Shown piece by piece: positions 12,820 through 63,984 of a stretch of DNA of 64,000 bases. This stretch comes from Heloderma charlesbogerti (taxonomy: Eukaryota > Chordata > Lepidosauria > Squamata > Helodermatidae): assembly GCA_026122225.1 (NCBI GenBank), contig JANEZZ010002239.1:930001-994000 (forward strand), given 5' to 3'. Within the stretch, counting starts at the first letter, position 1. Each line of letters opens with the position of its first letter. A program made the position numbers and the translations under genes. Below the pieces are notes generated by a model that saw only the letters and a list, made by a program, of their open reading frames with translations, did no database searches and was not told where the DNA came from.

Positions 12820-13602
12820 TAGAGATGGACAAATCTGTCTGTTTTGGTTTCTCTTAGTTTCTCATTCTTAAGTTCTATTTGTTCTGAACTTCGAGAATCC
12901 CGCCCCCCAAAAAAACAATAGCATGAAAATTTGTATGCATTTTTGTACACATTTCTAATACATGCGTTTGTAATGCAGTTTTGCCTAATATACACATCTA
13001 AGCAAGCCATTTTCCTAATATAATGCATTTCAAATGTTATTTTCATGAATATATGAATTTTTGTCTCTGCACATTCCCTAATATACACATTTGTGTACAC
13101 ATTTTTTGATTGGGAAACTCCATTGCAAAATTGGGAGACATGTACATTTTGCAGGATAACTAATGTTCAGTCTGTGTATTGGTTCAAAAGTATGAAATTA
13201 GGTAAGTTCACATTAAAATACAAGTCAAACACATTTCTCCCTAGGGATGTTATTAAAACAGATCTTATTACAACCATCTGTGTTTTGTGGATTGTCAGGC
13301 GTCTTTCATTCTGTCGTCCACTCATTGACAGAATCAGATTTTATTTTTTTTTAGGGATGTCTGAGAATTTCATTCCACTTACATTTAGGTGCATTAGTTC
13401 TTATTTGCACGTATACCAGTGCATGTTAGTGCAGTCCAAATTCCCCCCCCCAAGTTAGAAATTGGTCCACAAGTCTGTGGAATCTGCATAACTCAAAAAA
13501 AGCCAGTCCACTGCAGAATCCGCAGGTCAGATTTATAGAAATCTGAACTCATTTGAATCCACTGTGAATTTCTCTGACATCCCTATTTCTCCCCCATCCC
13601 TA
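12820..13602. mobile_element. Non-autonomous hAT element, family with TGCAAATTT arrays
   Basis: Ends TAGAGATGGAC and CATCCCTA are inverted repeats. Flanks ATGTGTTG (12812-12819) and CTGTGTTG (13603-13610) form an 8-bp target duplication with one mismatch, the hAT signature. The interior is full of short runs such as TTTGTATGCATTTTTGTACAC and TACACATTTGTGTACACATT. A second element appears nested at 13352-13585. Short ORFs here have no domain. Confidence 0.7.
13352..13585. mobile_element. Nested short TAGGGATGTC hAT MITE
   Basis: TAGGGATGTCTGAGAATTTC at the left pairs with GAATTTCTCTGACATCCCTA at the right, about 18 bp of terminal inverted repeat. The left flank is a T run and the right flank is TTTCTCCC, so the target duplication is uncertain. 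It sits inside the 12820-13602 element. Its right end is the same sequence type as the right end of the palindromic hAT-like family. Confidence 0.6.
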
Positions 13603-13701: not shown

Positions 13702-16700
13702 TGTTGTTGTTGTTGTTCAGTCGTTCAGTCGTGTCCGACTCTTCGTGACCCCATGGACCATAGCACGCCAGGCCTTCCTGTCCTGCGCTCTCTCCCGGAG
13801 CGTGCTCAAGTTCATATTCATTGCATCCGTGATGCTATCTAGCCATCTCATCCTCTGCCGTCCCCTTCTCCTTTTGCCTTCAGTCTTTCCCAGCATCAGG
13901 GTTTTTTCCAGGAAGTTTTCTCTTCGCATTAGGTGGCCAAAATATTGGAGCTTCAGCTTCATCATCTGTCCTTCCAATGAGCACTCAGGGTTGATTTCCT
14001 TTAGGATGGACTGATTGGACCTCCTTGCAGTCCAGGGGACTCGTAAGAGTCTTCTCCAGCACCACAGTTCGAAAGCATCAATTCTTCGGCGCTCAGCCTT
14101 CCTTATAGTCCAGCTCTCACAGCCATACATTACTACTGGGAAAACCATAGCTTTGATTAGACGGACCTTTGTCGGCAAGGTGATGTCTCTGCTTCTTACT
14201 ATGCTGTCTAGGTTGGCCATAGCTTTCCTCCCAAGGAGCAAGCGTCTTTTAATTTCATGGCTACAGTCACCGTCTGCGGTGATCTTGGAGCCCAAGAAAG
14301 TAAAATCTGTCACTGCTTCCATTTCTTCCCCTTCTATATGCCAGGAAGTGATGGGGCCAGATGCCATGATCTTCGTTTTTTTAATGTTGAGTTTCAAACC
14401 AGCTTTTGCACTCTCCTCTTTCACCCTCAACAAGAGACTCTTTAGATCCTCTTCGCTTTCTGCCATTAGGGTGGTATTGTCTGCATATCGGAGGTTGTTG
14501 ATAATTCTCCCAGCAATCTTAATTCCGACCTCTGATTCATCCAACCCAGCATTTCTCATGATGTATTCTGCATATAAGTTAAATAAGCAGGGTGACAATA
14601 TGCAGCCTTGTCGTACTCCTTTCCCAATTTTGAACCAATCGGTTGTTCCATGTCTGGTTCTTACTGTTGCTTCTTGACCCTCGTACAGGTTTCTCAGGAG
14701 ACAGGTAAGGTGGTCTGGTACTCCCATCACTTTCAGAATTTGCCACAGTTTGTTGTGATCCACACAATCAAAGGCTTTAGCGTAGTCAATGAAGCAGAAA
14801 TAGACGTTTTTCTGGAATTCTCTTGCTTTCTCCATGATCCAGCGAATGTTGGCGATTTGATCTCTAGTTCCTCTGCCTCTTCGAAACCCAGCCTGTACTT
14901 CTGGTAGTTCTCGGTTCGCATACTGCTGAAGCCTAGCTTGTAGGATTTTGAGCATCACCTTGCTGGCATGTGAAATGAGCGCAATTGTGCGGTAGTTCGA
15001 ACACTCTTTGGCGTTGCCCTTCTTTGGAATTGGAATGTAAACTGACCTTTTCCAGTCTTGTGGCCACTGTTGAGTGTTCCAGATTTGTTGACATATTGAA
15101 TGCAGCACTTTAACAGCATCATCTTTTAGGATTTTAAATAGCTCGGCTGGAATACTGTCATCTCCGCTAGCTTTGTTGTTATTAATGCTTCCTAAGGCCC
15201 ACTTGACTTCACTCTCGAGGATGTCCGGCTCAAGTTCAGTGACCGCACTATCATGGCTATCAGGGACATTCAGATCTTTCCTGTATAGTTCTTCTGTGTA
15301 TTCTTGCCACCTCTTCTTAATCTCATCTGCTTCTGTTAGGTCCCTGCCTTCTTTGTCCTTTATCATGCCCGTCTTTGCACAAAACGTTCCCTTGAGATCT
15401 CCAATTTTCTTGAAGAGATCTCTAGTCTTTCCCATTCTGTTGTTTTCCTCGATTTCTTTGCATTGTTCATTGAAGAAGGCCTTCTTGTCTCTCCTTGCTA
15501 TTCTCTGGAACTCTGCATTCAGTTGGGTATATCTTCCCCTTTCTCCCTTGCTTTTCGCTTCCCTTCTTTCGTGAGCTACTTGTAAAGCCTCATCAGACAG
15601 CCACTTGGCTTTCTTGCATTTCTTTTTCTTTGGGACGGATTGAGTTGCTGCCTCCTGAACAATGTTACGGACCTCCGTCCATAGTTCCTCAGGCACTCTG
15701 TCTATCAGGTCTAATCCCTGAAATCTATTCCTCACCTCCACTGTATATTCATCAGGGATATGATTTAGGTCATACCTGAACGGTTTAGTGGTTTTCCCGA
15801 CGTTCTTCAATTTAAGCCGAAATTTGGCAAGAAGCAGCTCATGATCTGAGCCACAGTCAGCTCCAGGTCTTGTTTTTACTGACTGTATGGAGCTTCTCCA
15901 TCTTTGGCTGCAAAGGACATAATCAATCTGATTTCGATATTGACCATCTGGTGACGTCCATGTGTAGAGTCGCCTCTTGTGCTGTTGGAAAAGAGTGTTT
16001 GCTATGATCAGCATGTTCTCTTGGCAAAACTCTATTAGCTTTTGTCCTGCTTCATTTTGTACACCAAGGCCATGCCTGCCTGTTATCCCGGTGATTTCTT
16101 GACTTCCTACTTTAGCATTCCAATCCCCTATGATGAAGAGGACATCTTTTTTTGGTGTTAGTTCTAGAAGGTGTTGTAGGTCTTCATAGAACCGATCAAC
16201 CTCAGCTTCTTCAGCCTCAGTGGTTGGGGCATAGACTTGAATTACTGTGATGTTGAATGGTTTGCCTTGGATTCGTACTGAGATCATTCTATCATTTTTA
16301 AGATTGTACCCCAGTACTGCTTTTCCCACCCTTTTGTTGACTATGAGTGCTACTCCATTTCTTCTAAGGGATTCTTGCCCACAATAGTAGATATGATGGT
16401 CACCTGAATTAAATTCGCCCATGCCTGTCCATTTTAGTTCGCTGATTCCCAAGATGTCGATGTTCAATCTTGCCATCTCATGTTTGACCACCTCCAGCTT
16501 ACCTTGATTCATTGATCTGACATTCCAGGTTCCTAAACAATATTGTTCTTTACAGCATCGGATTTTCTTTTCACCACCAGACACATCCACAGCTGAGTGT
16601 CCTTTCGGGTTTGGCCCAGCCGCTTCACTCTTTCTGGCGCTACTTGGAAATTCCCTCTGCTCTTCCCCAGTAGCATATTGGACACCTTCCGACCTGAGGG

Positions 16701-16925
16701 GCTCATCTTCCGGCGTCATATCTTTTAGCCTTGTGATACTTTCCATGGGGTTTTCTTGGCAAGAATACTGGAGTGGGTTGCCATTTCCTTCTCCAGTGGA
16801 CCACATTTTGTCAGAACTCTCCGCCATGACCTGTCCGTCTTGGGTGGCCCTGCACGGCATAGCTTATGGCTTCACTGAGTTACGCAAGCCCCTTCGCCAC
16901 AACAAGGCAGTGATCCATGAAGGGG
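13702..16925 (-). mobile_element. Full-length BovB (RTE) LINE with target-site duplication
   Basis: A 3.2-kb minus-strand element. The 5' end is at the right (TTCATGGATCACTGCCTTGT on the minus strand) and the 3' end is at the left, ending in an ACA-repeat tail. CATTTCATAT occurs immediately outside both ends (13692-13701 and 16926-16935). With the preceding GGG the match extends to 13 of 14 bases, a target-site duplication. Length, single ORF and tail agree with BovB, a non-LTR retrotransposon common in squamates and spread by horizontal transfer. It lies in the sense orientation of AGBL4. Confidence 0.95.
13717..16860 (-). CDS. BovB endonuclease-reverse transcriptase, intact frame but YADN at the RT active site
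   Basis: An uninterrupted 1047-residue ORF. An in-frame TAA shortly upstream makes the Met at 16860 the first possible start. The apurinic-type endonuclease lies at about residues 105-345 with TWN (N113), E141, GDWNAK (D246/N248), QIDYVL (D313) and GSDH (338-340), all expected catalytic positions. The reverse transcriptase spans about 545-865, with motif A FIDYAKAFD (D692) and RQGCILSP. The C-terminal region ends KSRTRLND. Residue 795 (codon 14476-14478) is Asn, so the conserved YADD box reads YADN. The second copy at 17367-18627 keeps YADD. Loss of this Asp is expected to abolish polymerisation, so the protein is probably dead despite a perfect frame; a base-calling error is the alternative. 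The product would act in cis on its own RNA. Confidence 0.93.
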   Translation of the reverse strand: MPCRATQDGQVMAESSDKMWSTGEGNGNPLQYSCQENPMESITRLKDMTPEDEPLRSEGVQYATGEEQREFPSSARKSEAAGPNPKGHSAVDVSGGEKKIRCCKEQYCLGTWNVRSMNQGKLEVVKHEMARLNIDILGISELKWTGMGEFNSGDHHIYYCGQESLRRNGVALIVNKRVGKAVLGYNLKNDRMISVRIQGKPFNITVIQVYAPTTEAEEAEVDRFYEDLQHLLELTPKKDVLFIIGDWNAKVGSQEITGITGRHGLGVQNEAGQKLIEFCQENMLIIANTLFQQHKRRLYTWTSPDGQYRNQIDYVLCSQRWRSSIQSVKTRPGADCGSDHELLLAKFRLKLKNVGKTTKPFRYDLNHIPDEYTVEVRNRFQGLDLIDRVPEELWTEVRNIVQEAATQSVPKKKKCKKAKWLSDEALQVAHERREAKSKGERGRYTQLNAEFQRIARRDKKAFFNEQCKEIEENNRMGKTRDLFKKIGDLKGTFCAKTGMIKDKEGRDLTEADEIKKRWQEYTEELYRKDLNVPDSHDSAVTELEPDILESEVKWALGSINNNKASGDDSIPAELFKILKDDAVKVLHSICQQIWNTQQWPQDWKRSVYIPIPKKGNAKECSNYRTIALISHASKVMLKILQARLQQYANRELPEVQAGFRRGRGTRDQIANIRWIMEKAREFQKNVYFCFIDYAKAFDCVDHNKLWQILKVMGVPDHLTCLLRNLYEGQEATVRTRHGTTDWFKIGKGVRQGCILSPCLFNLYAEYIMRNAGLDESEVGIKIAGRIINNLRYADNTTLMAESEEDLKSLLLRVKEESAKAGLKLNIKKTKIMASGPITSWHIEGEEMEAVTDFTFLGSKITADGDCSHEIKRRLLLGRKAMANLDSIVRSRDITLPTKVRLIKAMVFPVVMYGCESWTIRKAERRRIDAFELWCWRRLLRVPWTARRSNQSILKEINPECSLEGQMMKLKLQYFGHLMRRENFLEKTLMLGKTEGKRRRGRQRMRWLDSITDAMNMNLSTLRERAQDRKAWRAMVHGVTKSRTRLND

Positions 16926-16935
16926 CATTTCATAT

Positions 16936-17366
16936 AGGAATTCACAAAGAATGGATTTATAAAGCCTCCCTACTGACAGATGACAGCTACAGCATGCTGA
17001 ATGTTTCTCAAAGGCGGACTTCAGAACAATGGAAAACTGCTGAAAACCATGAACACTCAGCTCACATCCCACGTATTGCTCATGGAAGTACGTTACTCTT
17101 GTGAGTGAAGAATATGGCCCAACATAGCATTTGAACCAGGTCCTAGTGAATAATGATGTGCAAGCCACACTTCTCCAGCTTTTCGAGCATTCCTATTGAA
17201 TCTGAGTGTTTGGTTGGAACATTAAAAAAAGCACAAACTGGTGATGTGCAGCTCCTGCATACCCCTTACCTACCCAGTCCAAAAAAGACTTCACATGGGG
17301 GAAAGGCTCATTACCAAATGGCAGGTACAGCAACGCTTCTTCTTAGCTACAGATTGCTTGCCACGT
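16936..17366. other. Spacer between two BovB copies
   Basis: About 430 bp. Nothing recognised apart from the target-duplication copy at its left edge. Confidence 0.5.
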
Positions 17367-18627
17367 ATTTCACATGCCAGCAAGGTTATGCTCAACATCC
17401 TACAACCTCGGCTTCAGCAGTATGTGAACCAAGAACTACTGGAAGTACAAGCTGGGTTTCAAAGAGGCAGAGGAACTAGAGATCTAATCGCCAACATTCG
17501 CTGGATCATGGAGAAAGCAAGAGAATTCCAGAAAAACATCTATTTCTGTTTCATTGACTACGCTAAAGCCTTTGATTGTGTGGATCACAACAAACTCTGG
17601 CAAATTCTGAAAGAGATGGGAGTACCAGACCACCTTACCTGTCTCCTGAGAAACCTGTACGGGGGTCAAGAAGCAACAATAAGAACCAGACATGGAACGA
17701 CCGATTGGTTCTAAATTGGGAAAGGAGTACAAGGCTGCATATTATTGCCCTGCTTATTTAACTTATATGCAGAGTACATCATGAGAAACGCCGGGTTGGA
17801 TAAATCACAGGTTGGAATTAAGATTGCCGGGAGAATTATCAACAACCTCAGATACGCAGACGATACCACCCTAATGGCAGAAAGCGAAGAGGATCTAAAG
17901 AGCCTCTTGTTGAGGGTGAAAGTGGAGAGTGCAAAAGCTGGTTTGAAACTCCACATTAAAAAAACTAAGATCATGGCATCTGGCCCCATCACTTCCTGGC
18001 ATATAGAAGGGGAAGAAATGGAAGCAGTGACAGATTTTATTTTCTTGGGCTCCAAGATCACCGCAGAAGGTGACTGTAGCCATGAAATTAAAACATGCTT
18101 GCTCCTTGGGAGGAAAGCTATGGCAAACCTAGACAGCATAGTAAGAAGCAGAGACATCATCTTGCCGACAAAGGTCCACATAATCAAAGCTATGGTTTTC
18201 CCAGTAGCAACGTATGGCTGTGAGAGCTGGACTGAAGGCTGAGGACCGAAGAATTGATGCTTTCGAACTGTGGTGCTGGAGAAGACTCTTACGAGTCCCC
18301 TGTACTGCAAGGAGTTTAAATCAGTGAATCCTAAAGGAAATCAACCCTGACTGCTCATTGGAAGGACAGATACTGAAGCTGAAGCTCAAATATTTTGGCC
18401 ACCTAATGCGAAGAGAAAACTCTCTGGAAAAGACCCTGATGCTGGGAAAGATTGAAGGCAAAAGGAGAAGGGGACGACAGAGGATGAGATGGCTAGATAG
18501 CATCACCGATGCAATGAATATGGACTTGAGCACACTCCGGGGGAGAGCGCAGGACAGGAAGGCCTGGCGTGCTATGGTCCATGGGGTCACGAAGAGTCGG
18601 ACATGACTTAACGACTGAACAACAACA
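17367..18627 (+). mobile_element. BovB (RTE) LINE, 5' truncated, opposite orientation
   Basis: Starts at the motif corresponding to SHASKVML in the RT domain (residue 630 of the full copy) and runs to the 3' ACAACAACAA tail. It is broken by a TAA at about 17713 (an A-to-T change turning Lys to stop), a 3-bp loss just after, and a short deletion near 18236 that shifts frame. YADD is intact (about 17858). It sits about 430 bp from, and opposite to, the full-length copy, so the pair could form an inverted repeat of over 1 kb. Confidence 0.92.
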
Positions 18628-18829: not shown

Positions 18830-19588
18830 TAGGGATGTACGAAAGTCACTTACCTTTTTGAAGGGTGACATTCGCAGTGGGGGGGACCCGGGGGAGGCGC
18901 TCTGTCCCTTCCCCTAAAATTCTGTCCAGCCGGCTCCGCTCTGCGGAGATTCTGTGGAGCTGCTGGCCGGGGCCGCCCACAGCTGGACATCCAGCTGCTG
19001 GGCAGCCTGCAGGGATGCAAATGGTGGCTGCTGTAGCTGCCGCCGTTTGCGTCCCTGTATTTTGCCGTGATAGGCATTGTAAATATTTACATAGCCTATC
19101 ACGGCAAGCAAAAAACAAAACAAAACAGCAGACGCAAATGGCGGCGGCTACGGTGGCCACCATTTGCATTCCCTTTTTTTCTCCGTTTTAGCCTACATAA
19201 ATATTTACGTAGGCTATTACGGCAAAAAAAAAAGGGAACGCAAATGGCGGCCGCTGTAGCTGCCGCCATTTGTGTCCTCTGTTTTTGTTGTTTTTGCTTG
19301 CTGTGATAGGCTACGTAAATACTTATGTAGCCTATCACGGCCTCCACAGGGATGCAAATGGCATCCCTGCATTAGCCGTGATAGGTTACGCAATTATTTA
19401 TGTAGCCTATCACGGCTATGATGAGGAAGCGAATGGCGGCTGCAGACGCGGCCTCCATTCACAAGTCAGCGTGGACGGCAGCAGGTAAGTGCTCCATTTT
19501 GCACACCTTTCGTGGGGTGGGGGGTGGGGGCTTCGTTCCGCCATGGATTTCGGGTGGAGATCCGTGGCGGAATTCTCTGACATCCCTA
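18830..19588. mobile_element. Palindromic hAT-like element, copy 1
   Basis: Begins TAGGGATGTACGAAAGTCAC and ends GAATTCTCTGACATCCCTA; flanks CGTTTCTG (18822-18829) and CATTTCTG (19589-19596) are an 8-bp duplication with one CpG-type mismatch. It contains four hairpins on the GATAGGC..GTAAATA..GCCTATC theme, near 19061-19103, 19184-19223, 19302-19341 and 19374-19416. Between them are GCAAATGGCGGC-type hairpins. GGTAAGT-type motifs face outward at both ends. There is no transposase; ORFs inside read the same hairpins in several frames. Confidence 0.82.
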
Positions 19589-23100: not shown

Positions 23101-23869
23101 TGGGGATGTCAGAGAATTCCACCACAGATCTCAGTGAGGCCAAATGCGAATGCATTCGGCCCCCCAAAATCCATGGCGGAACGAAGAATGCGGCCGCCAT
23201 TTGCTTCTTCATCATAGCCTATCATGGCGAACGCAGGGATGCCTTTTGTGTCCCTGTGGAGGCCATGATAGGCTACACAAGTATTTACGTAGCCTATCAT
23301 GGCAAGCCCAAAAAACAAACAAACAGTGTACACAAATGGTACACAAATGGCTACGGCGGCCGCCATTTGCGTTCCCTTTTTTTTGCTGTTTTAGCCTATG
23401 TAAACATTTACGTAAGCTATTATGGCGAAAAAAAGGGGACCACAAATAGTGTAGTGGGCGCTATTTGCGTTCCTTTTTTTTCGCCGTAATAGCTTACGTA
23501 AATATTTACATAGGCTAAAACGGTGAGAAAAAAAAGGAACGCAAATGGCGCCCACTACACTATTTGCGTTCCCTTTTTTTCCGCCGTAATAGCTTACGTA
23601 AATATTTACGTAGACTAAAACAGCGAAAAAAAGAGAACGCAAATGGCAGCTGCCATAGCCGCTGCCATTTGCGTACGCTGCTTTTTTCCCCTCCCCTGCA
23701 GGCTGCCCAGTGGCCGGATGTCCAGCTGAGGGCAGCCCCGGCTGGCGGCTCTGCAGAATCTCTGTGGAGCAGAGCCGGCCAGATTAGGATTTCGGGTGGA
23801 GGTGCGAAGCGTCTCCCCCCCACCGTGAATCACCCCGTCAAAAAGGTAAGTGACTTTCGTACATCTCTA
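23101..23869. mobile_element. Palindromic hAT-like element, copy 2 (reverse)
   Basis: Inserted in the opposite orientation to copy 1: begins TGGGGATGTCAGAGAATTCC and ends GGTAAGTGACTTTCGTACAT plus CTCTA. Flanks TCACTATG (23093-23100) and TCAATATG (23870-23877) are an 8-bp duplication with one mismatch. Hairpins lie near 23215-23240, 23262-23302, 23391-23427, 23481-23523 and 23584-23623, with GCAAATGG/AGCGCCC-type hairpins between. The centre is near 23455-23565, where the two halves mirror one another. No coding capacity. Confidence 0.82.
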
Positions 23870-24397: not shown

Positions 24398-26493
24398 TCT
24401 TCATTTATTTATTTATTTTTATTTCATTACTATACCACCCAATAGCCAAAGCTCTCTGGGCGGTTCACAAAAATTAAAAGCAAACAGCACACAATAAAAC
24501 GATTTAAAATATATAGAACATTAAAACCACAATATAACAATACAAACACAACGAAACCTAGCAGCAGTGCAGGAGTTTAAAACACAGATTTAAAACAGCA
24601 AAGCTAAAAGTCTAGAAAGCTAAAATGCTAAAATGCCTGGGAAAATAAAAAAGTCTTCACCTGGTGCCAAAAGGAATACAATGTAGGTGCCAGGCGAACC
24701 TCACTAGGGAGCTCATTCCAGAGCCGGGGTGCCACAGCAGAAAAAGCCCTCCTCCTAGTAGCCACCCACCTCACTTCCTTTGGCAGGGGCTCACGGAGAA
24801 GGGCCGCTGATGATGATCTTAAGGTCCGGGCAGGCACATATGGGAGGAGGCGATCCTTCAGGTAACCTGGCCCCAAGCCGTTAAGGGCTTTAAATGTTAA
24901 TACCAGCACTTTGAATTGGGCCCAGAAATGGACTGGCAGCCAGTGCAGCTGGAAAAGTACTGGCATAATATGAGCTTGCGGGCCAGTTCCTCTTAACAAT
25001 CTTGCTGCCCTATTTTGGACCAGCTGAAGTTTCCGGACCGTTTTCAAAGGCAGCCCCACATATAACGCATTGCAGTAATCCAGATGAGAAGTTATCAGAG
25101 CATGGATAACTGTAGCTAGGCTATCTCTGTCCAGATAAGGGCGTAGTTGGTATACCAGCCTAAGCTGATAAAAAGTGCTCCGTGCCACTGAGTTCACCTG
25201 TGCCTCAAGAGGCAGTTCTGGATCCAAGGGCACCCCCAAACAATGAATGTGATCCTTTAGGGGGAGTGCAACCTCCTCCAGAACAGGTTGAATATCACCT
25301 AGCCAGGCAGACGAACCACCCACTAACAGTACCTCCATCTTGTCTGGATTTAGTTTCAGTTTATTGGTCCTCATCCAATCCATGACTGTGCCCAGGCACT
25401 GATTTAGAACAGCCACTGCCTCACTTGGGTTTGATGAGAAAAACAGGTAGAGCTGGGTGTCATCTGCATATTGATGGCACCTCAGCCCACACCTCCGGAT
25501 AACCTCTCCCAGTGGTTTCATGCAGATATTAAACAGCATGGGGGATAAGATAGAGCCCTGTGGAACCCCATGGCACAATTGCCATGGCACAGAGTGATAA
25601 CCCCCCAGCACCACCTTCTGGAATCGGCCATCCAAGTAGGAGTGGAACCCAGACAACCTATCCAGAAGGATACCATGGTCGATGGTATTGAAAGCCGCTG
25701 AGAGGTCCAGGAGAATCAACAGGGTCGCACTCCCCCTGTCCCTCTCCTGGCAGATGTCATCCCACACAGTGACCAAGGCAGTTTCCATTCCAAAACCAGG
25801 CCTGAAGCCTGACTGAAATGGATCTAGATAATCTGTTTCATTCAACAGTGCCTGGAGCTGTCCTACAACCACCTGCTCAAGCACCTTGCCCAGGAAGGGG
25901 ATGTTGGCCACTGGCCTATAATTGTTAACATCCTCTGGGTCCAGGTTAGGCTTTTTCAGGAGTGGTCTAATTACCGCCTCTTTTAAAGTGGCAGGCACCA
26001 CTCCCTCTCTCAAGGAGGAATTTACAACCTCCTGGACCCAATCGGACATCCCCTCCTTAATTGATTTAATAAGCCATGAAGGGCAAGGGTCAAGCACACA
26101 AGTGGTCGATCGGACTTGGCCAAGCACCTTGTCCACATCTTCAGGCTTCAGTAACTGAAACTCATCCAATAAAACTAGACCAGATGGTGCTCTGAATGCT
26201 GGCCAGGCTCTGCTCAGAGGGAGAGGGCATTTGGCCGCGATCGTGTCAACTGCCCAAGTCATCTCTGCATTCCACAGAGCGACCTGGGCTTCGACAGGAG
26301 CACCAGCCATACCAGCAGGAAAATCCCCCAGAGCCCTCTGGAATCCATCGGAATCCGTTAGCCTCTGGGGGTGGACCATTTTAATAGGCCCCCCACCCTT
26401 GCAGAGGGGGAAGGCTGCCAGGAGTCTAAACCTCAGCAGGAAGTTCTCTCCTCGCCCTCCCAGGTTTTATGCCCCTCAACAACAGAAACTCAG
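24398..26493 (-). mobile_element. L2-clade LINE, 5' truncated, long open frame
   Basis: Minus-strand element of about 2.1 kb. Its 3' end is at the left (GGGCGGTTCACAAAAATT read on plus, then a TTTA-repeat tail) and its 5' break is near 26467-26493. CATTCTATT occurs just outside both edges (24389-24397 and 26494-26502), a possible 9-bp target duplication, though L2 duplications are often weak. The remaining frame is listed separately. It is in the AGBL4 sense orientation. Confidence 0.9.
24628..26466 (-). pseudogene. L2 reverse transcriptase, partial ORF with a gap in the RT domain
   Basis: Open from about 26466; the first Met at 26379 gives 583 residues. Upstream codons still read FLLRFRLLAAFPLC, so the true protein is longer and the endonuclease domain is lost. 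From the Met: NNYRPVANIPFLGKVLEQ (152-169), motif A LLDLSAAFNTIDH (D225 present), GVPQGSILSPMLFN (271-284), QYADDTQLYL (YADD 304-307) and the C-terminal region to QVKTFLFSQAF. Between RLSGF and YLDGR (about residue 245) the spacing looks roughly ten residues shorter than usual for L2, an in-frame deletion between motifs A and B. The frame has otherwise no stop. Non-functional as it lacks the N-terminal half. Confidence 0.85.
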
Positions 26494-38087: not shown

Positions 38088-39020
38088 GAATTGAGACTTA
38101 GCCATGCTTAGAATAGACCCAGTTAGGGATGTACGAAAGTCACTTACCTTTTCGCGGATTCTGTTCATGGGGGGGGGGGAGGCGTTCCATCCCTCCCCCT
38201 GGAATCCTCGACAGGGGGGGAGAAGATCCGGTCCTCCTGCCCGGAATCCTCGACGGCCAGCTGTGCTCCGTGGCGGCTCCGTGGAGCAGCCAGCCAGGCC
38301 CAGGCCAGGGCTGTCTGCAGCTGGATTTCCGGCCGCGGAGGGCTCTGGGTAAAAACAAACAAACACGTACGCAAATGGCGGCGGCTACGGCCACCGCCAT
38401 TTGCGTTCCTTATTTTTCGCCATCTTAGTCTACGTAAATATTTACGTAGACTAAGATGAAGAAAAGAAAGGGGAATGCAAATAGCGTACTAGGCGCTATT
38501 TGCATCCCCCTTTCTTGTCTTCGTCTTAGTCTATGTAAATATTTATGTAGATTAAGATGGTGAAAAATAAGGAACGCAAATGGCGGTGGCCATAGCCGCC
38601 GCCATTTGCATACGCATTTTTTTGGTTTTTTACCCAGATGTGATAGGCTATGTAAGTCTTTACGTAGCCTATCACGTCTATGGGGGGAAAAAAAGAAAAA
38701 AACACAGACTGCAAATGGCGGCGGCAGCAGCCGGTTGGAAGACCAGCCGCCGCCACTGCCGCCACCGCCAAAGCTGCCGCTGGAGCCGCCGCCATCCGAA
38801 ACATCCACCCCAGGTAAGTCTCGTCCCGGGGGGGATCCGTGGGAGGCAGGGGGGTGGCAGGCCATTCCGCGATGGATTTCAGGGGGCCGAATGCGGAATT
38901 CTCTGACATCCCTAGACCCAGTAAAAAAAAATCAATGGATCAAGTTAGTCAAGATTAACTTAAGTCCCATTGATTCAGCAGGTCTACTCTAAGCATGACT
39001 AAGTCAAGGTTCAACTCAAA
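38088..39020. mobile_element. Host MITE split by palindromic element copy 3
   Basis: Left piece 38088-38123 (TTGAATTGAGACTTAGCCAT, GCTTAGAATAGACC) is the reverse complement of the right piece 38923-39020 (GGTCTACTCTAAGCATGACT, AAGTCAAGGTTCAACTCAA). The two arms once formed a continuous fold-back element, into which copy 3 inserted at GACCCAGT. Confidence 0.65.
38124..38914. mobile_element. Palindromic hAT-like element, copy 3
   Basis: Begins TAGGGATGTACGAAAGTCAC and ends GGAATTCTCTGACATCCCTA. The flanking GACCCAGT is perfect (38116-38123 and 38915-38922). Hairpins on TACGTAAATATTTACGTA lie near 38422-38456, 38522-38560 and 38638-38675; GCAAATGGCGG..CCGCCATTTGC hairpins at 38371-38404 and 38575-38610; and a central GCAAATAGCG..CGCTATTTGC at 38477-38505. 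GGTAAGT motifs face outward near 38144 (minus) and 38811 (plus). Confidence 0.87.
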
Positions 39021-45014: not shown

Positions 45015-45457
45015 TAGGGATATCGGAGAAATCCGCAATGGGATCAAGTGAGTTCAAATTTCTATGAATCCGACCCATGGATTCCTCAACGGACTGGCTT
45101 TCCCCAAGTCACACGGATTCTGTGGACCTGTTTTTTACTTTCTGGAATTTTATGCAAATTTAGTTATACAAAAGTACATACAATTTTTTTTAAAAGTTGG
45201 CTGAAATTGTACATTTCTCCCATAGGGTAAAGCAGGAAAATGCGCATTTTGGGAGCATTTGCACATTTTGGGGGGAGATTTGTGCATTTTTGCAAGTGCA
45301 AATTTGCAGAAATGCACATTTTCACAAATGCAAGTTTGTGGGCATTTGGGAAATTGGAAAAATCCAATTCTCTCAATGAGGTGATGACGGAATGAAAGGC
45401 ACCTGACAATCTGTGAAACACAGACAGAATGGATTTCACCAAATCTGTACATCCCTA
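45015..45457. mobile_element. Non-autonomous hAT element with GCACATTTT arrays
   Basis: Begins TAGGGATATCGGAGAAATCC and ends GTACATCCCTA. Flanks AGTGCAAG and AGTACAAC agree at 6 of 8 positions. The interior has arrays such as GCATTTGCACATTTTGG and TTTGTGCATTTTTGCAAG. Related to 12820-13602 and 53104-53513. Confidence 0.68.
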
Positions 45458-50549: not shown

Positions 50550-51346
50550 TAGGGATGTACGAAAGTCACTTACCTTTTCGCAGGGGTGATTCGCGGTGGG
50601 GGGGAGGCGCTTCGCTTCTCCCCCCGAAGTTCAGGCAAGGGGGGGAGGCATCCCGCCTCGCCCGGCCGAAATTCAGGCTGGGGGGGGAGGCGCCCCGCCT
50701 CGCCCGGCCGAAATTCAGGCCTGGGAGAAGCGCCCCGTCTCCCCGGCCGCGAAAGAAAAAGTAAAACAAAAACAAAAATACCCCCCCCCCCGTGATAGGC
50801 TATGTAACGATTAACGTAGCCTATCACGGCTAGATTTCCAAATAGCGTGCCCTTATTTTCGCCGTAGTCTACGTAATTCTTTACGTAGACTAGACGTGCC
50901 AAAATAAGGAACGCAAATGGCGGCGCCCATGGGCCGCCACCATTTGCGTACGCGCTTTTTTTTTTTTTTTCCAAAGTCACCTGTGATAGGCTACGTGACG
51001 ATTTACGTAGCCTATTATGGCTGACTTTGGAAATCTAGCCGTGATAAGCTACGTAAATCGTCACGTAGCCTATCACGGGTGTGTGTTGTTGTTTTTTTAC
51101 TTACTTTTTAATTTTGTAATGGTGGCGGCGGCAGCCGGTCGGGAGACCGGCTGCCGCCCCCGCCCCCGCCGAACTGCCGCCGAACCGCCGCCGGGACCCG
51201 CCGCCGAGAGGGACATTCGCTGAAGGTAAGTCCCATCCCGGGGGGGGTGGGGGGCCAGCGGAGAATTTCCCCAACACTTTCGGGGGGCTGAATGCCTTGG
51301 CGCTCAGCCTCCCGAAGATTCGGGGAGAAATTCTCCACCATCCCTA
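50550..51346. mobile_element. Palindromic hAT-like element, copy 4
   Basis: Begins TAGGGATGTACGAAAGTCAC and ends AATTCTCCACCATCCCTA. The perfect 8-bp duplication is GGTAAAAC (50542-50549 and 51347-51354). The left 200 bp has a roughly 45-bp GC-rich unit (CCGGCCGAAATTCAGGC core) repeated about three times. Hairpins lie at 50791-50828, 50860-50898, 50909-50950, 50980-51020 and 51040-51080. Outward GGTAAGT lies near 50571 (minus) and 51226 (plus). CpGs are well preserved. Confidence 0.88.
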
Positions 51347-53103: not shown

Positions 53104-53513
53104 TAGGGATGTCCTTCACTTGGAAGTCTGGCCCTTTGGGGGCTCAACAGAGTTCTGTGGCATGCCCAGCTCGTCTTGCATTTCTGAGCAGAGCTGCAGG
53201 TTTTCCCCAAACTCTGGGGATGTTTTGCATGTTTTGTGTGTGTGGCAGGCCATAATTTGTGCATATAGCCATTTGTGCAAATTGTGGCCAAAATGTGCAC
53301 AAATTTGGACAAATTGCAGCCGTACTTTATGCAAATTTGTGCAAACTTCAGCCATAATTTGCACAAATTAAAAAACATGGAAAATCTGCTAACTAGCTCA
53401 ACTTGCTGCAGATTGGCCACTTAGCAGAAAACAGAGTGAAGTCGGGGGGGGAGGGGTGAACCAATGAAAGCTCATCATGCTCCACCCCCAAACGGTTTCC
53501 TCCAACATCCCTA
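53104..53513. mobile_element. Non-autonomous hAT with TTTGTGCAAATT array, perfect 8-bp duplication
   Basis: Begins TAGGGATGTCCTTCACTTGG and ends CCTCCAACATCCCTA. CACTTAAT is duplicated exactly (53096-53103 and 53514-53521). The interior 53260-53370 has about eight short repeats of the CATTTGTGCAAATTG type, in both orientations. Confidence 0.82.
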
Positions 53514-56521: not shown

Positions 56522-57480
56522 TAGGGATGGACGAAAGGGACTTACCTGGCCCCGCAGCTTGCTTCGCGGTGGGGGGGAGGCGCTTCGGTTCTCCCCCCGA
56601 AGTTCAGGCGAGGGGGGGGAGGCGCCCCGCCCCGCCCGGCCGAAATTCAGGCCAGGGGGGGAGGCGCCCCATCCCTCGCCGCTGAAATTCAGGCCGGGGA
56701 GGAGCGCCCCATCTACCCGGCCGCAAAAAAAAAAGTAAAGTAAAAAAACACAAAACACACCCGTGATAGGCTACATAACGATTTACGTAGCCTATCACGG
56801 CTAGATTTCCAAAGTCAGCCGTGATAGGCTATGTAAATCGTCACGTAGCCTATCACGGGTGACTTTGAAAAAAAAAAAAAGCGCGTATGCAAATGGCGGC
56901 GCCCATGGGGCGCCGTCATTTCCATTCCTTATTTTGGTACGTCTAGTCTACGTAAAGATTTACGTAGACTACGGCGAAAATAAGAGAACACTATTTGCGT
57001 TGCCCTTATTTTCGCCGTAGTCCACGTAAATCTTTACGTAGACTAGCCGTGCCAAAATAAGGAACGCAAATGGCGGTGCCCCATGGGCGCCGCCATTTGT
57101 GTACACACTTTTTTTTTTCAAAGTCACCCGTGATAGGCTACGTGCTGATTTACGTAGCCTATCATGGCTGACTTTGGAAATCTAGCCGTGATAGGCTACG
57201 TAAATCGTTACGTAGCCTATCACGGGTGTGGTTTTTTTTTTTACTTTCCTTTTTTATTTTGCAATGGCGGTGGCGGCAGCCGGTCAGAAGACCGGCCGCC
57301 GCCCCCGCTGCACCGCCGACGCACCGCTGCCGGGACCCGCCGCCGAGAGGGACATTCGCACGAGGTAAGTCCCATCCCGGGGGGGGGGCGGGCGGAGAAT
57401 TTCACCACCAATTTCGGGGTGCCGAATGCATTGGCATTTGGCCTCCTGGAGATTCGTGGAGAAATTCTCCGCCATCCCTA
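56522..57480. mobile_element. Palindromic hAT-like element, copy 5
   Basis: Begins TAGGGATGGACGAAAGGGAC and ends AATTCTCCGCCATCCCTA, 959 bp. The interior 56760-57232 is one long palindrome centred near 56995; each arm holds two GATAGGCTACGT hairpins, one GCAAATGGCGGCGCC hairpin and one TAGTCTACGTAAA hairpin. The left end has the tandem GC-rich units. The flanks (ACACAGTG and CTGTAGTA) do not match, unlike all other complete copies. Confidence 0.8.
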
Positions 57481-57618: not shown

Positions 57619-58430
57619 TAGGGATGGACGAAAGTCACTTACCTGATCCCGAAGCTTGCTTCGCGGTGGGAGGGAGGCGCTGTTTCTCCCCCTGAAATTC
57701 TGGCCGGGGGGGAGGTGCCCCATCCCTCCCCACTGAAATTCTGGCCAGGGGGGGAGGCGCCCCATCCCTCCCCGCCGAAATTCTGGCCAGGGGGGAGCGC
57801 CCCATCTCTCCGGCCACGAATCCTGTTGTCCTGCCGGGATACAAATGGCGGCGGCTGTAGCCGCCGCCGTTTGCGTCCCTGGCCTGCAGTCAGCCGTGAT
57901 AGGCTACGTAAATTTTTACGTAGCCTATCACGGCTGACTTTGGGGAAAAAAAAAAAAAAGCGTTGCCCTTATTTTCGCTGTAGTCTACGTAAATATTTAT
58001 GTAGACTACCCGTGCCAAAATAAGGAACGCAAATGGCGGTGCCCATGGGCACTGCCATTTGCATATGCACCTCCCCCCCCCCAAGTCAGCCGTGATAGGC
58101 TACGTAAACATTTACGTAGCCTATCACGGCGTTTTTTGAAAATCTAGCCGTGATAGGCTATGTAAATCTTTACGTAGCCTATCAATTTTTGTTGTTTTTT
58201 TTTACTTGGAAATGGCGGCAGCAGCAGCCGGTCGGAAGACCAGCTGCCGCCGCCGCCCCACCGCCGCACTGCTGCCGGGAGCCGCCGCCGCGAGGGACAT
58301 TCGCCAAAGGTAATTCCCATCCCGGGGGTGGCGGGGGGGTGGCGGACCGTTTCTCCACCAGTTTCGGGGGGCCGAATGGGTTGGCATTCGGCCTCCTGGA
58401 GATTCGTGCAGAAATTCTCTGACATCCCTA
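57619..58430. mobile_element. Palindromic hAT-like element, copy 6
   Basis: Begins TAGGGATGGACGAAAGTCAC and ends AATTCTCTGACATCCCTA. Flanks GCGCATGC (57611-57618) and GCGCACGC (58431-58438) match at 7 of 8. It has hairpins near 57894-57932, 57977-58010, 58025-58065, 58088-58130 and 58147-58185. Part of the mirrored centre is deleted compared with copies 5 and 7. Confidence 0.84.
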
Positions 58431-59011: not shown

Positions 59012-59981
59012 TAGGGGTGCACGAAAGTCACTTACCTGGTCTCGCAGCTTTTCGCGGTGGGGGGGAGGTGCTTCGCTGCTCTCCCCCCGAAGTTCAGGCC
59101 GGGGGGGGGAGGCTTCCCACCTCGCCCGGCCGAAATTCAGGCCGGGGGGAGGCTTCCCGCCTCGCCCGGCCGAAATTCAGGCCGGGGAGGAGGCGCCTCG
59201 CCTCACCCGGCCGCGAAATTAAAAGTAAAAAAAAACAAAAACACCCCCGTGATAGGCTACGTGATGATTAACGTAGCCTATCACGGCTAGATTTGCAAAG
59301 TCAGCCGTGATAGGCTACGTAAATCGTCATGTAGCCTATCACGGGTGACTTAAAAAAAAAAAAAAAAAAGCGCGTACGCAAATGGCGGCCCCCATAGGGA
59401 GCCGCCATTCACATTCCTTATTTGGTCGCTGTAGTCTACGTAAATCTTTATGTAGACTACGGCGAAAATAAGGGCAACGCAAATAGCGTTGCCCTTATTT
59501 TCGCCGTAGTCTGCGTAATCTTTACGTAGACTACAGTGACCAAATAAGGAACGTGAATGGCGGCTCCCTATGGGGGCCGCCATTAGCCGTATGCGCTTTT
59601 TTTTTTAAAGTCACCCGTGATAGGCTACGTGACGATTTACGTAGCCTATCATGGCTGACTTTGCAAATCTAGCTGTGATAGGCTACGTTAATCGTCACGT
59701 AGCCTATCACGGGGGCTTTTTTTTTTTTTAGTTTTATTGGAATGGCGGCGGCGGCAGCCGGTCAAAAGATCGGCTGCCGCCCCCACCCCTGACGAAGACC
59801 CGACGAACCGCTGCCGGGACCCGCCGTCGGGAGGGACATTCGGGAAAGGTAAGTCCTGTCCCAGGGGGGGTGTGGGGGGCAGGGGGGTGCGGAGAATTTC
59901 TCCCCGAAACTTCTTCATGGGGCCGAACACGTTGGCGCTCGGCCCCCCGAAGTTTCGGGGAGAAATTCTCCGCCAACCCTA
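59012..59981. mobile_element. Palindromic hAT-like element, copy 7 (most symmetrical)
   Basis: Begins TAGGGGTGCACGAAAGTCAC and ends AATTCTCCGCCAACCCTA, 970 bp. GATCTAGC is duplicated exactly (59004-59011 and 59982-59989). 59244-59715 is a single palindrome of about 470 bp centred at 59483 (GGGCAACGC AAATA GCGTTGCCC), each arm made of nested hairpins. The left segment has three GC-rich tandem units with AAATTCAGGCCGGGG. No coding capacity. Confidence 0.88.
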
Positions 59982-60539: not shown

Positions 60540-61702
60540 GGGCAGTATCCAATATGACATTGCCACTAATGTAAATTACATTGCATTAGGGATGGCAGAG
60601 AATTCCGCCACGGATTAACCCCAAAATCTGTGGTGGAATGGCCTGCTCCCCCCGCCCCCCCGCGGATTGCCTCCGGGACAAAGCTGACCTGGGGTGGATG
60701 TTCTGGATGGCGACGGCTCCGGCCGCCACGGCCGCCATTTGACCGGCTGCCACGGCCGCCATTTGCATCCTGGTCTTTGCCGTGATAGGCTATGTAAGTA
60801 TTTACGTAGCCTATCACGGCAAGCCAAGCAAAACAAAAAACAAAAAAAATGGCGTACGCAAATGGCGGCTACGGCAGCTGCCATTTGCATTCCCTATTTT
60901 TCGCCGTTTTAGCCTATGTAAATATTTACGTAGGCTATTACGGAGGGGGAAAAAGGGAACGCAAATAGCGTAATGGGCGCTATTTGCGTTCATTTTTTTC
61001 CTGCCGTTTTAGCCAACGTAAATATTTACGTAAGCTATTATGGTGAAAAAAAAAGGAACGCAAATAGCACCCACTACGCTATTTGTGTTCCCCTTTTTTT
61101 CGCCGTAATAGCCTACGTAAATATTTACATAGGCTAAAACAGCGAAAAATAGGGAACACAAATGGCAGCCACCGTAGCCGCCGCCATTTGTGTATGCTGT
61201 TTTTTTTGTTTTTGTTGTTGGGTTGCTGTGATAGGCTATGTAAATATTTACGTAGCCTACCATGGCAGCCTGGCTGGATGCAAATGGCGGCCACTATGGC
61301 GGCCGCCATTTGCATCGGCAGCAGCCCGTCCACAGCCAGAAATCCAGCTGTGGACAGCCCTGGCCGGCTGTTCCATGGAGCCGCTGCAGAGCGGAGCCGG
61401 CCAGGCACGATTCCAGGGGGGGGAGGACCGGATCGCCTCCCCCCGTTGAGGATTCCGGGGGGAGGGACGGAGTGCCTCCCCCCCACTGCAAAAAATTCCA
61501 CGAAAAAGTAAGTGAGTTTCGTACATCTCTACATTGCATAGCATAAACAGCCTCTAGTGTAATGCCAACAGGGCTTGCTGGCACAATGGATCTACAAGAG
61601 AAACCCCTTGTGCCAGGAAGTGCTATTGGCATTGCTCTAGAGCTTTCTTACACTAGCGCAACATAATTTATATTAGCAGTAATGTCTCACTGGATACTGC
61701 CC
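60540..61702. mobile_element. Fold-back MITE (GGGCAGTATCC ends) split by palindromic element copy 8
   Basis: Left piece 60540-60586 (GGGCAGTATCCAATATGACA, TTGCCACTAATGTAAATTAC) is inverted at the right end of 61532-61702 (GTAATGTCTCACTGGATACT, GCCC). Removing copy 8 leaves about 210 bp with terminal inverted repeats of some 40 bp. Confidence 0.7.
60587..61531. mobile_element. Palindromic hAT-like element, copy 8 (reverse)
   Basis: Begins TAGGGATGGCAGAGAATTCC and ends GTAAGTGAGTTTCGTACATC plus TCTA. CATTGCAT is duplicated exactly (60579-60586 and 61532-61539). Hairpins lie near 60780-60820, 60903-60943, 61012-61043, 61102-61140 and 61226-61266, with GCAAATGGCGG hairpins between and AGCGTAATGGGCGCT near 60966. 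It retains GTAAGTGAG facing outward at the right end; the left-end donor motif is mutated to GGTCAGC. Confidence 0.87.
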
Positions 61703-62941: not shown

Positions 62942-63306
62942 AAAGCCATAGCCGCCGCCATTTGCGTTGGTTTTTGTTTTTGCCGTGATAGGCTATGTAA
63001 ATATTTACATAGCCTATCATGGCAAAATACAGGGAAGCAAATTGTGGCGCGTCCCTGTATGGCAGGGTGGCAAATTTGCTATTATATGGCAAATTTGCTA
63101 TTTGCCATAGCAAATGGCGGCATTTGTGTCCCTGCAGGCTGCCCAGCGGCTGGATGTCCAGCTGTGGGTGGCCCTGGCCGGCAGCTCTGCGGAATCTCCC
63201 TGGAGTGGAGCTGGCCGGAAAGAATTTCGGGGGAAGGGACGGAGCGCCTCCCCCCCCACTGCGAATGTCACCTTTCGAAAAGGTAAGTGACTTCCGTACA
63301 TCCCTA
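62942..63306. mobile_element. Palindromic hAT-like element, copy 9, truncated
   Basis: Retains one GCCGTGATAGGCTATG hairpin (62980-63022), a variant block of GCAAATTTGC palindromes (63040-63110), the GC-rich arm and the end GGTAAGTGACTTCCGTACAT plus CCCTA. The left two-thirds is missing, and the right flank GCTGCGCT has no partner on the left. Confidence 0.78.
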
Positions 63307-63664: not shown

Positions 63665-63984
63665 TAGGGATGTCGTGGGCACCTGACTGGGTCCGGGAGT
63701 CTGTTGGACCCCCTTTGCCCGAGGTATAATGCCTCTAATATTGAGCATATGAAGCTTTCCCAGCCCCAAACTGTGCATATTTAAATATGCGCATTGTTTG
63801 AACTTCCTTTTTTAACACAGAAAACAAAGGCAGGAAAATGGCGGGCGCTCATCAGACGGGATCGCAGTGAGTCTAGGCAACTTGCCAAGCTCATGGGCAG
63901 CCCAGGTCTGGGGGGGGGCGAGCAGGGGCGGCGCTTCAGTGGGCACCCAGAGAACTCGAGCTGGCGTGGGTTCTCACATCCCTA
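63665..63984. mobile_element. Non-autonomous hAT element, distinct interior
   Basis: Begins TAGGGATGTCGTGGGCACC and ends GGGTTCTCACATCCCTA. Flanks CACATGCC (63657-63664) and AACATGCC (63985-63992) match at 7 of 8. The interior has TGCATATTTAAATATGCGCA at 63773-63792, but none of the hairpins of copies 1-9. Confidence 0.75.

Follow-up and report, generated by a model that had tools for sequence, protein, structure and literature searches.

hAT transposons carry short terminal inverted repeats that begin with the consensus C/TAGNG; the target duplication of Ac/Ds is 8 bp in size, and Tol2/Angel has a single internal inverted repeat. The ends of maize Ac/Ds are given as C/TAGGGATGAAA, TAGGGATG matching the T variant over its first eight bases, and the same excerpt of that account describes Ds1 and Ds2 elements with the octamer TAGGGATG/CATCCCTA, a target duplication and diverse interiors, all of which recur in the family reported here (PMC3260210). 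Tol2, a hAT element with 8-bp duplications, is drawn together with an Angel element having inverted repeats in the relevant portion of PMC8151067. The Foldback/Galileo elements of Drosophila, as far as the excerpt of PMC4168063 describes them, share with the present family long inverted repeats, internal tandem repeats and changeable arms, while six MITE-like clusters of Anopheles gambiae are termed palindromic repeats in the extract of PMC3212995. With respect to mechanism, yeast inverted repeats acquire matching arms and flipped spacers through template switching (excerpt of PMC8604942), a process that in RNA genes creates and repairs hairpins (excerpt of PMC8794818).

The window, which is the whole 64-kb stretch of DNA that was analysed, contains what is probably a non-autonomous hAT-type family whose internal array has been grown, self-matched, flipped and trimmed by template switching, mainly in source elements. 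Nine related copies were found at the nine positions proposed in a sequence-only reading of this DNA. Together they amount to 7,167 bp, or 11.2% of the window, and five of the nine lie within 56.5–63.3 kb (simulated p = 0.036). Six copies are on the + strand and three (23101, 60587 and 62942) on the − strand. Named by their first coordinate, they are as follows.

59012–59981, + strand: index copy, 970 bp, with the 8-bp target duplication GATCTAGC on each side
56522–57480, + strand: copy with mirror order as in 59012 and a palindrome at 56723–57262, without target duplication
57619–58430, + strand: copy with a 7/8 target duplication and a partly deleted array, one junction lying at a Y centre
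50550–51346, + strand: copy with an 8/8 target duplication and a deletion between a Z centre and a Y centre
38124–38914, + strand: copy with an 8/8 target duplication and a palindrome at 38344–38638
18830–19588, + strand: copy with a 7/8 target duplication and a palindrome at 19026–19377
23101–23869, − strand: copy with a 7/8 target duplication and a tandem array at 23361–23644 (period ∼98)
60587–61531, − strand: copy with an 8/8 target duplication, a gapped palindrome at 60639–61403 and a tandem array at 60883–61172 (period ∼99)
62942–63306, − strand: incomplete copy that has lost one terminus, with the break inside the loop of a Y hairpin

The left ends of the copies read TAGGGATG-ACGAAAGTCACTTACCT, with variants, and the right ends close in CATCCCTA or a variant of it. 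The earlier proposal of common ends holds for most copies, in which the termini are exactly TAGGGATG/CATCCCTA; it has to be relaxed for 59012 (TAGGGGTG...CAACCCTA), 23101 (TGGGGATG...CATCTCTA) and 60587 (which ends in CATCTCTA), and 62942 lacks one end. Target duplications of 8 bp flank seven of the eight complete copies, the number originally put forward: four are exact (38124, 50550, 59012 and 60587) and three contain one mismatch (18830, 23101 and 57619). The flanks of 56522 match at 3 of 8 positions, and this copy has no target duplication; the flanks of the incomplete copy 62942 match at 4 of 8. The hAT-type terminal consensus is present as TAGGGATG in most copies and as variants in 59012, 23101 and 60587. 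Judged from these termini and the 8-bp duplications, the hAT-like reading appears supported; as no transposase was found, the assignment is drawn from ends and duplications only. Ten of the 62 ORFs in the window were submitted to Pfam, and no domain, that of a hAT transposase included, was detected in the eight that overlap the copies, which is to be expected of a non-autonomous element. In their length (759–970 bp for complete copies), their abundance (nine copies in 64 kb), their inverted termini and target duplications, and the lack of domains in these eight ORFs, the copies have the features of MITEs.

The window also contains other elements. One of them, at 53104–53513, likewise has TAGGGATG ends but is distinct from the nine copies; an exact 8-bp duplication (CACTTAAT) flanks it, and it contains five palindrome centres and an array of 32-bp repeats with no evident relation to the main family. 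It is perhaps the same palindromic trend in another sequence. The TAGGGATG-ended element at 13242–13585 has an exact 8-bp duplication (TTTCTCCC), a right end that resembles that of the main family, no palindrome centres and a fold z-score of −5.1. A further TAGGGATG-ended element at 63665–63984, with a 7/8 target duplication, also has no palindrome centres, and an element-like stretch at 45015–45457, with the ends TAGGGATA and CATCCCTA, has one. Since 13242–13585 and 63665–63984 have none and 45015–45457 only one, interior palindromes are not a rule for TAGGGATG-type ends. An open frame of 1048 aa at 13717–16863, which we take to be BovB-like, contains endonuclease and reverse transcriptase domains (Pfam), and similar-looking frames lie at 17226–18242. 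Another open frame, of 612 aa (24628–26466), contains a reverse transcriptase domain (Pfam) and apparently belongs to another LINE.

In the interior of the family a ∼50-bp monomer is repeated in alternating orientation, with mirror centres about every 50 bp. When the centres are sorted into classes by eye, the X centre lies between ACGTAAAT and ATTTACGT, the Y centre is GCAAATGGCGGC or AAATAGCG, and the monomer extends from an X centre to a Y centre. A third centre, Z, between TAGATTTC and CAAAGTCA, is confined to the subfamily of 50550, 56522, 57619 and 59012. The X motif occurs 1–6 times per copy, and 36 X centres were counted in the copies, the scan having listed 42, of which five outside the copies and one at 59028 were left out as spurious. 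Up to 11 ordered array centres are present in one copy. Their spacing is 48–52 bp in 17 of 22 intervals in 60587, 23101 and 38124, and in 56522 the intervals run 29-29-67-52-36 and then 38-51-65-28-30. Tandem arrays of period 98–99 are present in 23101 and 60587. When a palindromic unit is repeated in tandem, a mirror centre falls at each half period, and palindromes made of palindromes therefore follow without any further design. The GC-rich array near the left end (40–42 bp) and the right-terminal hairpin are also palindromic, and their sequence is unlike X, Y and Z. The corresponding parts of the index copy 59012 are listed here.

59220–59736: long palindrome, with arms of 263 and 254 nt, a centre near 59482 and smaller palindromes inside
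59246–59345: left X-hairpin pair, jointly forming a further palindrome (Z centre)
59607–59720: right X-hairpin pair, the mirror image of the left pair
59087–59213: GC-rich tandem array (∼40 bp) near the left end, which has its own palindrome centres
59889–59973: right-terminal hairpin, with 25-nt arms that are 100% complementary

The sequence-only reading had further proposed that the hairpins are arranged mirror-wise about one centre. The mirror order of spacings is indeed significant in 56522 and in 59012 (p = 0.003 by permutation for each); it is not in 18830, 23101, 38124 and 60587 (p = 0.46–1.0). The test covered these six copies, 50550, 57619 and 62942 being left aside, and it omitted the GC-array, G and terminal-hairpin centres (102, 124, 766 and 910 in 56522; 144 and 754 in 59012; 149 and 911 in 60587; 724 in 18830); for two centres of 56522 it used 472 and 654, given as 473 and 655 in the centre list. 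With four of six tested copies failing, mirror order was rejected as a family-wide rule, and the alternately inverted ∼50-bp units of the array give a better account of the symmetry than a general mirror does.

A two-scale self-complementary interior, the central feature of the earlier proposal, is real and recurs across the copies. In 59012 the arms are nested: outer arms of 164 nt (86% complementary) enclose inner arms of 67 nt (96%) and a core of 33 nt (94%), and the paired hairpins form arms of 50 and 57 nt with no spacer. When short-loop palindrome centres were counted as ungapped matches with a score of at least 11, all nine copies contained between 2 and 15 of them (9 in 18830, 9 in 23101, 6 in 38124, 12 in 50550, 15 in 56522, 9 in 57619, 13 in 59012, 12 in 60587 and 2 in 62942), compared with means of 0–0.2 in dinucleotide shuffles (20 for each copy). 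Among 20 control windows, some of them mutually overlapping, 12 had no centre, seven had one and one had two, and the top centre score was 25 in the controls as opposed to 109 in the copies. Minimum free energies calculated with DNA parameters gave z-scores, from 20 and 12 shuffles, of −9.2 to −51.1 for the nine copies and of +1.3 to −4.1 for 12 controls, some of which overlap; for four other TAGGGATG/TAGGGATA-ended stretches the values were −1.8 to −6.6. Together, the fold z-scores and the shuffle and control counts rule out a chance origin of the self-complementarity. A known structured RNA was also rejected as the identity of these sequences, there being no match at the gathering threshold.

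The two sides of the palindromes have changed together in some copies. In 36 aligned X hairpins, 87.1% of 720 cells are paired (81.6 in shuffles), the covariation score is 0.228 (0.153) and 41 cells are altered on both sides (22.2), values that none of 500 shuffles reached, although these shuffles ignore relatedness. One X-hairpin pair is seen as G-C, U-A and C-G. The number of pairs altered on both sides (8 versus 8.3) and of further pair types (24 versus 26.9) showed no excess over the shuffled X hairpins. Own arms matched in 17.06 of 22, compared with 15.85 after shuffling. Similarity between the two long arms of 59012 is 0.897, whereas their similarity to the arms of 56522, 50550 and 57619 does not exceed 0.857. 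Comparison of 59012 with 56522, a single pair of copies, revealed 12 sites that are equal between the arms within a copy and different between the copies, with three or four sites of the opposite pattern; the shuffled mean is 1.05 and none of 20,000 shuffles reached 12. Eight of these 12 sites are of transversion type, and eight are derived in 59012, the other four being ambiguous. Restriction to the first 215 of 257 columns, which excludes the T-rich ends, gave 11 sites versus 0.74. Concerted change of the arms is thereby shown in 59012. It is partly shown in 38124, whose two arms have a similarity of 0.89 to each other, compared with no more than 0.75 to any of eight arms taken from two other copies. 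In 56522 the similarity between the arms is 0.870; because its left arm is closer to an arm of 50550 (0.883) than to its own right arm, this copy is not clearly homogenised, and 50550 and 57619 are the closest matches for its arm 57031_R. Homogenisation is patchy across the copies.

Flips and breaks were seen in the same arrays. The central unit of 60587 fits that of 23101 better when inverted (0.88 and 0.90) than when collinear (0.82 and 0.87), with 87 inverted versus 83 collinear matches in 104 columns; centre 59519, absent from the X scan, was added by hand for the inversion comparison. In this comparison of two copies the central units look inverted, which is partly shown, the signal being modest. 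The deletion in 50550 has a Z centre at one end and a Y centre at the other, with CAA shared, and that in 57619 has one end at a Y centre and the other in a poly-A run. Judged by eye and with no chance test, four of five deletion ends in 50550, 57619 and 62942 are at or near palindrome centres; the location of deletion ends at centres is partly shown. With regard to age, the target duplications differ at 3 of 56 positions, whereas copies within subfamily B diverge by 12–22% at non-CpG sites; from this we infer that most of the change occurred in source elements before insertion.

The ends of the copies carry a further motif. Fourteen instances of AGGTAAGT, a strong consensus for 5′ splice sites, are present in the window, where 2.06 are expected; none of 100 shuffles reached 14. 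Thirteen of the 14 lie within copies, at eight of nine left ends and five of eight right ends, and every one of them faces outward. The six pairwise sites of three copies are listed.

59030–59037, − strand: AGGTAAGT donor-like site at the left end of 59012, outward
59847–59854, + strand: AGGTAAGT donor-like site at the right end of 59012, outward
18848–18855, − strand: donor-like site at the left end of 18830, outward
19483–19490, + strand: donor-like site at the right end of 18830, outward
38142–38149, − strand: donor-like site at the left end of 38124, outward
38812–38819, + strand: donor-like site at the right end of 38124, outward

The core ACTTAC is at position 19 in all nine left ends, and GTAAGT lies 95–127 bp from the right end in five of eight copies. 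Exceptions on the right are 57619, which has GGTAATT, and 23101 and 60587, which are without a donor; on the left, the site of 60587 is imperfect. The array holds three further six-base cores, of which two face inward (50550 at 550, 60587 at 733) and one, in 38124 at 529, faces outward. The sole AGGTAAGT outside the nine copies, at 13200–13207, is 42 bp ahead of the element at 13242. The observed/expected ratio of CpG is 0.67–1.14 in the copies and 0.21 outside. Divergence at CpG sites relative to non-CpG sites is 1.5–1.9 in subfamily B and 1.2–2.3 among the other five copies, which indicates either that the insertions are recent or that the CpGs of the copies are unmethylated. Within the copies (18830–63306), we take GCAAATGGCGGC to resemble a YY1 site, ATTTGCAT an octamer site and TACGTAA a bZIP site.

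The termini, the duplications and the array are established by these data, and we infer template switching as the agent of array change. An unseen hAT transposase would move the family in trans. The array of inverted ∼50-bp monomers would grow as a polymerase switches template at hairpins, and the same switching would keep the arms matching, flip units and trim the array, the changes arising mainly in source elements, ahead of insertion of the present copies. Concerted arms, flipped central units and breaks at centres are the kind of trace that template switching leaves at inverted repeats; homogenised arms and inverted spacers are both seen here, the inversion more weakly. Gene conversion as a source of similar arms, and fold-back copying that regrows the palindrome and leaves similar arms, are not separated from template switching by these data.

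It is improbable that a single ancestral palindrome, formed by inverted duplication, has been passively inherited and has decayed ever since: the array layout is common to copies within subfamilies, and 56522, with a left arm that resembles an arm of 50550 (0.883) more than it does the right arm (0.870), does fit such a history, but the 12 concerted sites of 59012 and 56522 (1.05 expected) and the arms of 38124 (0.89 alike, at most 0.75 like the two other copies compared) do not, and decay on its own was rejected on the concerted arms of 59012 and 38124. Inverted duplications are a known read artefact, and assembly from fold-back reads was considered for this reason; it is very hard to reconcile with long arms that differ by 10–13% in 59012, 56522 and 38124, with a structure common to nine copies, or with target duplications in seven of eight complete copies, and is most improbable. 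The internal repeats might instead be candidate arrays of transposase-binding sites, like hAT subterminal repeats, in which more sites raise transposition. The Ac transposase binds repeated subterminal hexamers in the excerpted account (PMC3260210), and the X motif recurs up to six times in a copy; however, the Ac hexamer AAACGG has one match in the terminal 200 bp across the nine copies and is not repeated as in Ac/Ds, so that Ac hexamer arrays were rejected. Moreover, the array is central rather than subterminal, and several unlike motifs (the GC array, X/Y/Z and the right-terminal hairpin) are all palindromic, which makes a binding-site role improbable.

The outward motifs suggest a different function, in which the CpG-rich, strand-symmetric interior transcribes outward in both directions and the symmetry is kept by selection. 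This is rather unlikely, and so, to the same degree, is an exon-trap version in which the outward 5′ splice sites would either splice element exons onto exons of the host or stabilise readout transcripts by recruiting U1. The excess of AGGTAAGT (14 versus 2.06), the outward orientation of all 13 sites in copies, the fixed ACTTAC at left ends (9/9), the GTAAGT near right ends (5/8) and the CpG ratio (0.67–1.14 versus 0.21) all agree with both forms, but the right donor is altered in 57619 and missing in 23101 and 60587, the left site of 60587 is imperfect, two of the three cores in the array face inward, and CpG retention is also explicable by recent insertion. Furthermore, the donors are inherited by descent and so amount to only two independent sites, and it is equally possible that the motif is a candidate transposase-binding site. 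That the copies are a candidate mobile, direction-independent promoter, with a strand-symmetric CpG-island core and two outward donors and with symmetry kept by template switching, is a speculative combination to which we give little weight. If the promoter reading were true, each insertion would drive transcripts into the host DNA on both sides and splice them; the conserved outward splice-donor-like motifs in CpG-rich DNA amount to a concrete, testable claim on host-gene effects.

Template switching, mainly in source elements, remains the preferred reading. Instability is expected of long palindromes, yet the present family, with palindromes on up to three levels, still spreads and makes up 11.2% of the window. 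If copies in the genome are many, they would form a natural record of palindrome growth, matching, flipping and breakage, from which template switching could be measured directly.

Searches for a described counterpart gave the following. Strings from the family had no match in the full-text literature, which carries little weight, since papers do not contain repeat libraries. Searches for hAT elements with splice donors and for nested palindromes returned no papers, and nothing among the papers listed named this family. The words 'hairpin' and 'internal inverted' are absent from the available text of the Mar hAT MITE paper (PMC3517528), as is 'palindrom' from that of a snake repeat review (PMC8303610). 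Viral contigs scanned with three family patterns gave no match to any, and a 17-mer scan of genome contigs gave eight matches, all in records labelled as bacterial genomes or MAGs, which were taken as chance.

Compared with the systems introduced above, the family differs from Ac/Ds in its multi-level palindromic interior and in left and right ends that share only ∼9 bp by eye. Unlike Tol2/Angel, it has as many as 11 array centres in order within a single copy. Galileo belongs to the P-superfamily and its long inverted repeats are terminal in the excerpt describing it (PMC4168063), whereas here they are internal and the ends short and hAT-like; a simple foldback/Galileo element was rejected because the long repeats are internal and the ends share ∼9 bp by eye. 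The extract on the Anopheles clusters mentions neither palindromes within palindromes nor a known superfamily (PMC3212995). Yeast repeats that undergo template switching show arm homogenisation and spacer inversion, as does this family, but their arms, as given in the excerpt, are 10–16 bp long and lie in genes, compared with transposon arms of up to ∼260 nt here (PMC8604942). The earlier statement that ordinary MITEs have at most simple arms was too strong, given the palindromic Anopheles elements and Tol2/Angel in the excerpts available (PMC3212995; PMC8151067). Overall, the difference from earlier palindromic elements is the number of palindrome levels, and the family is a striking form of a known element type rather than a new type.
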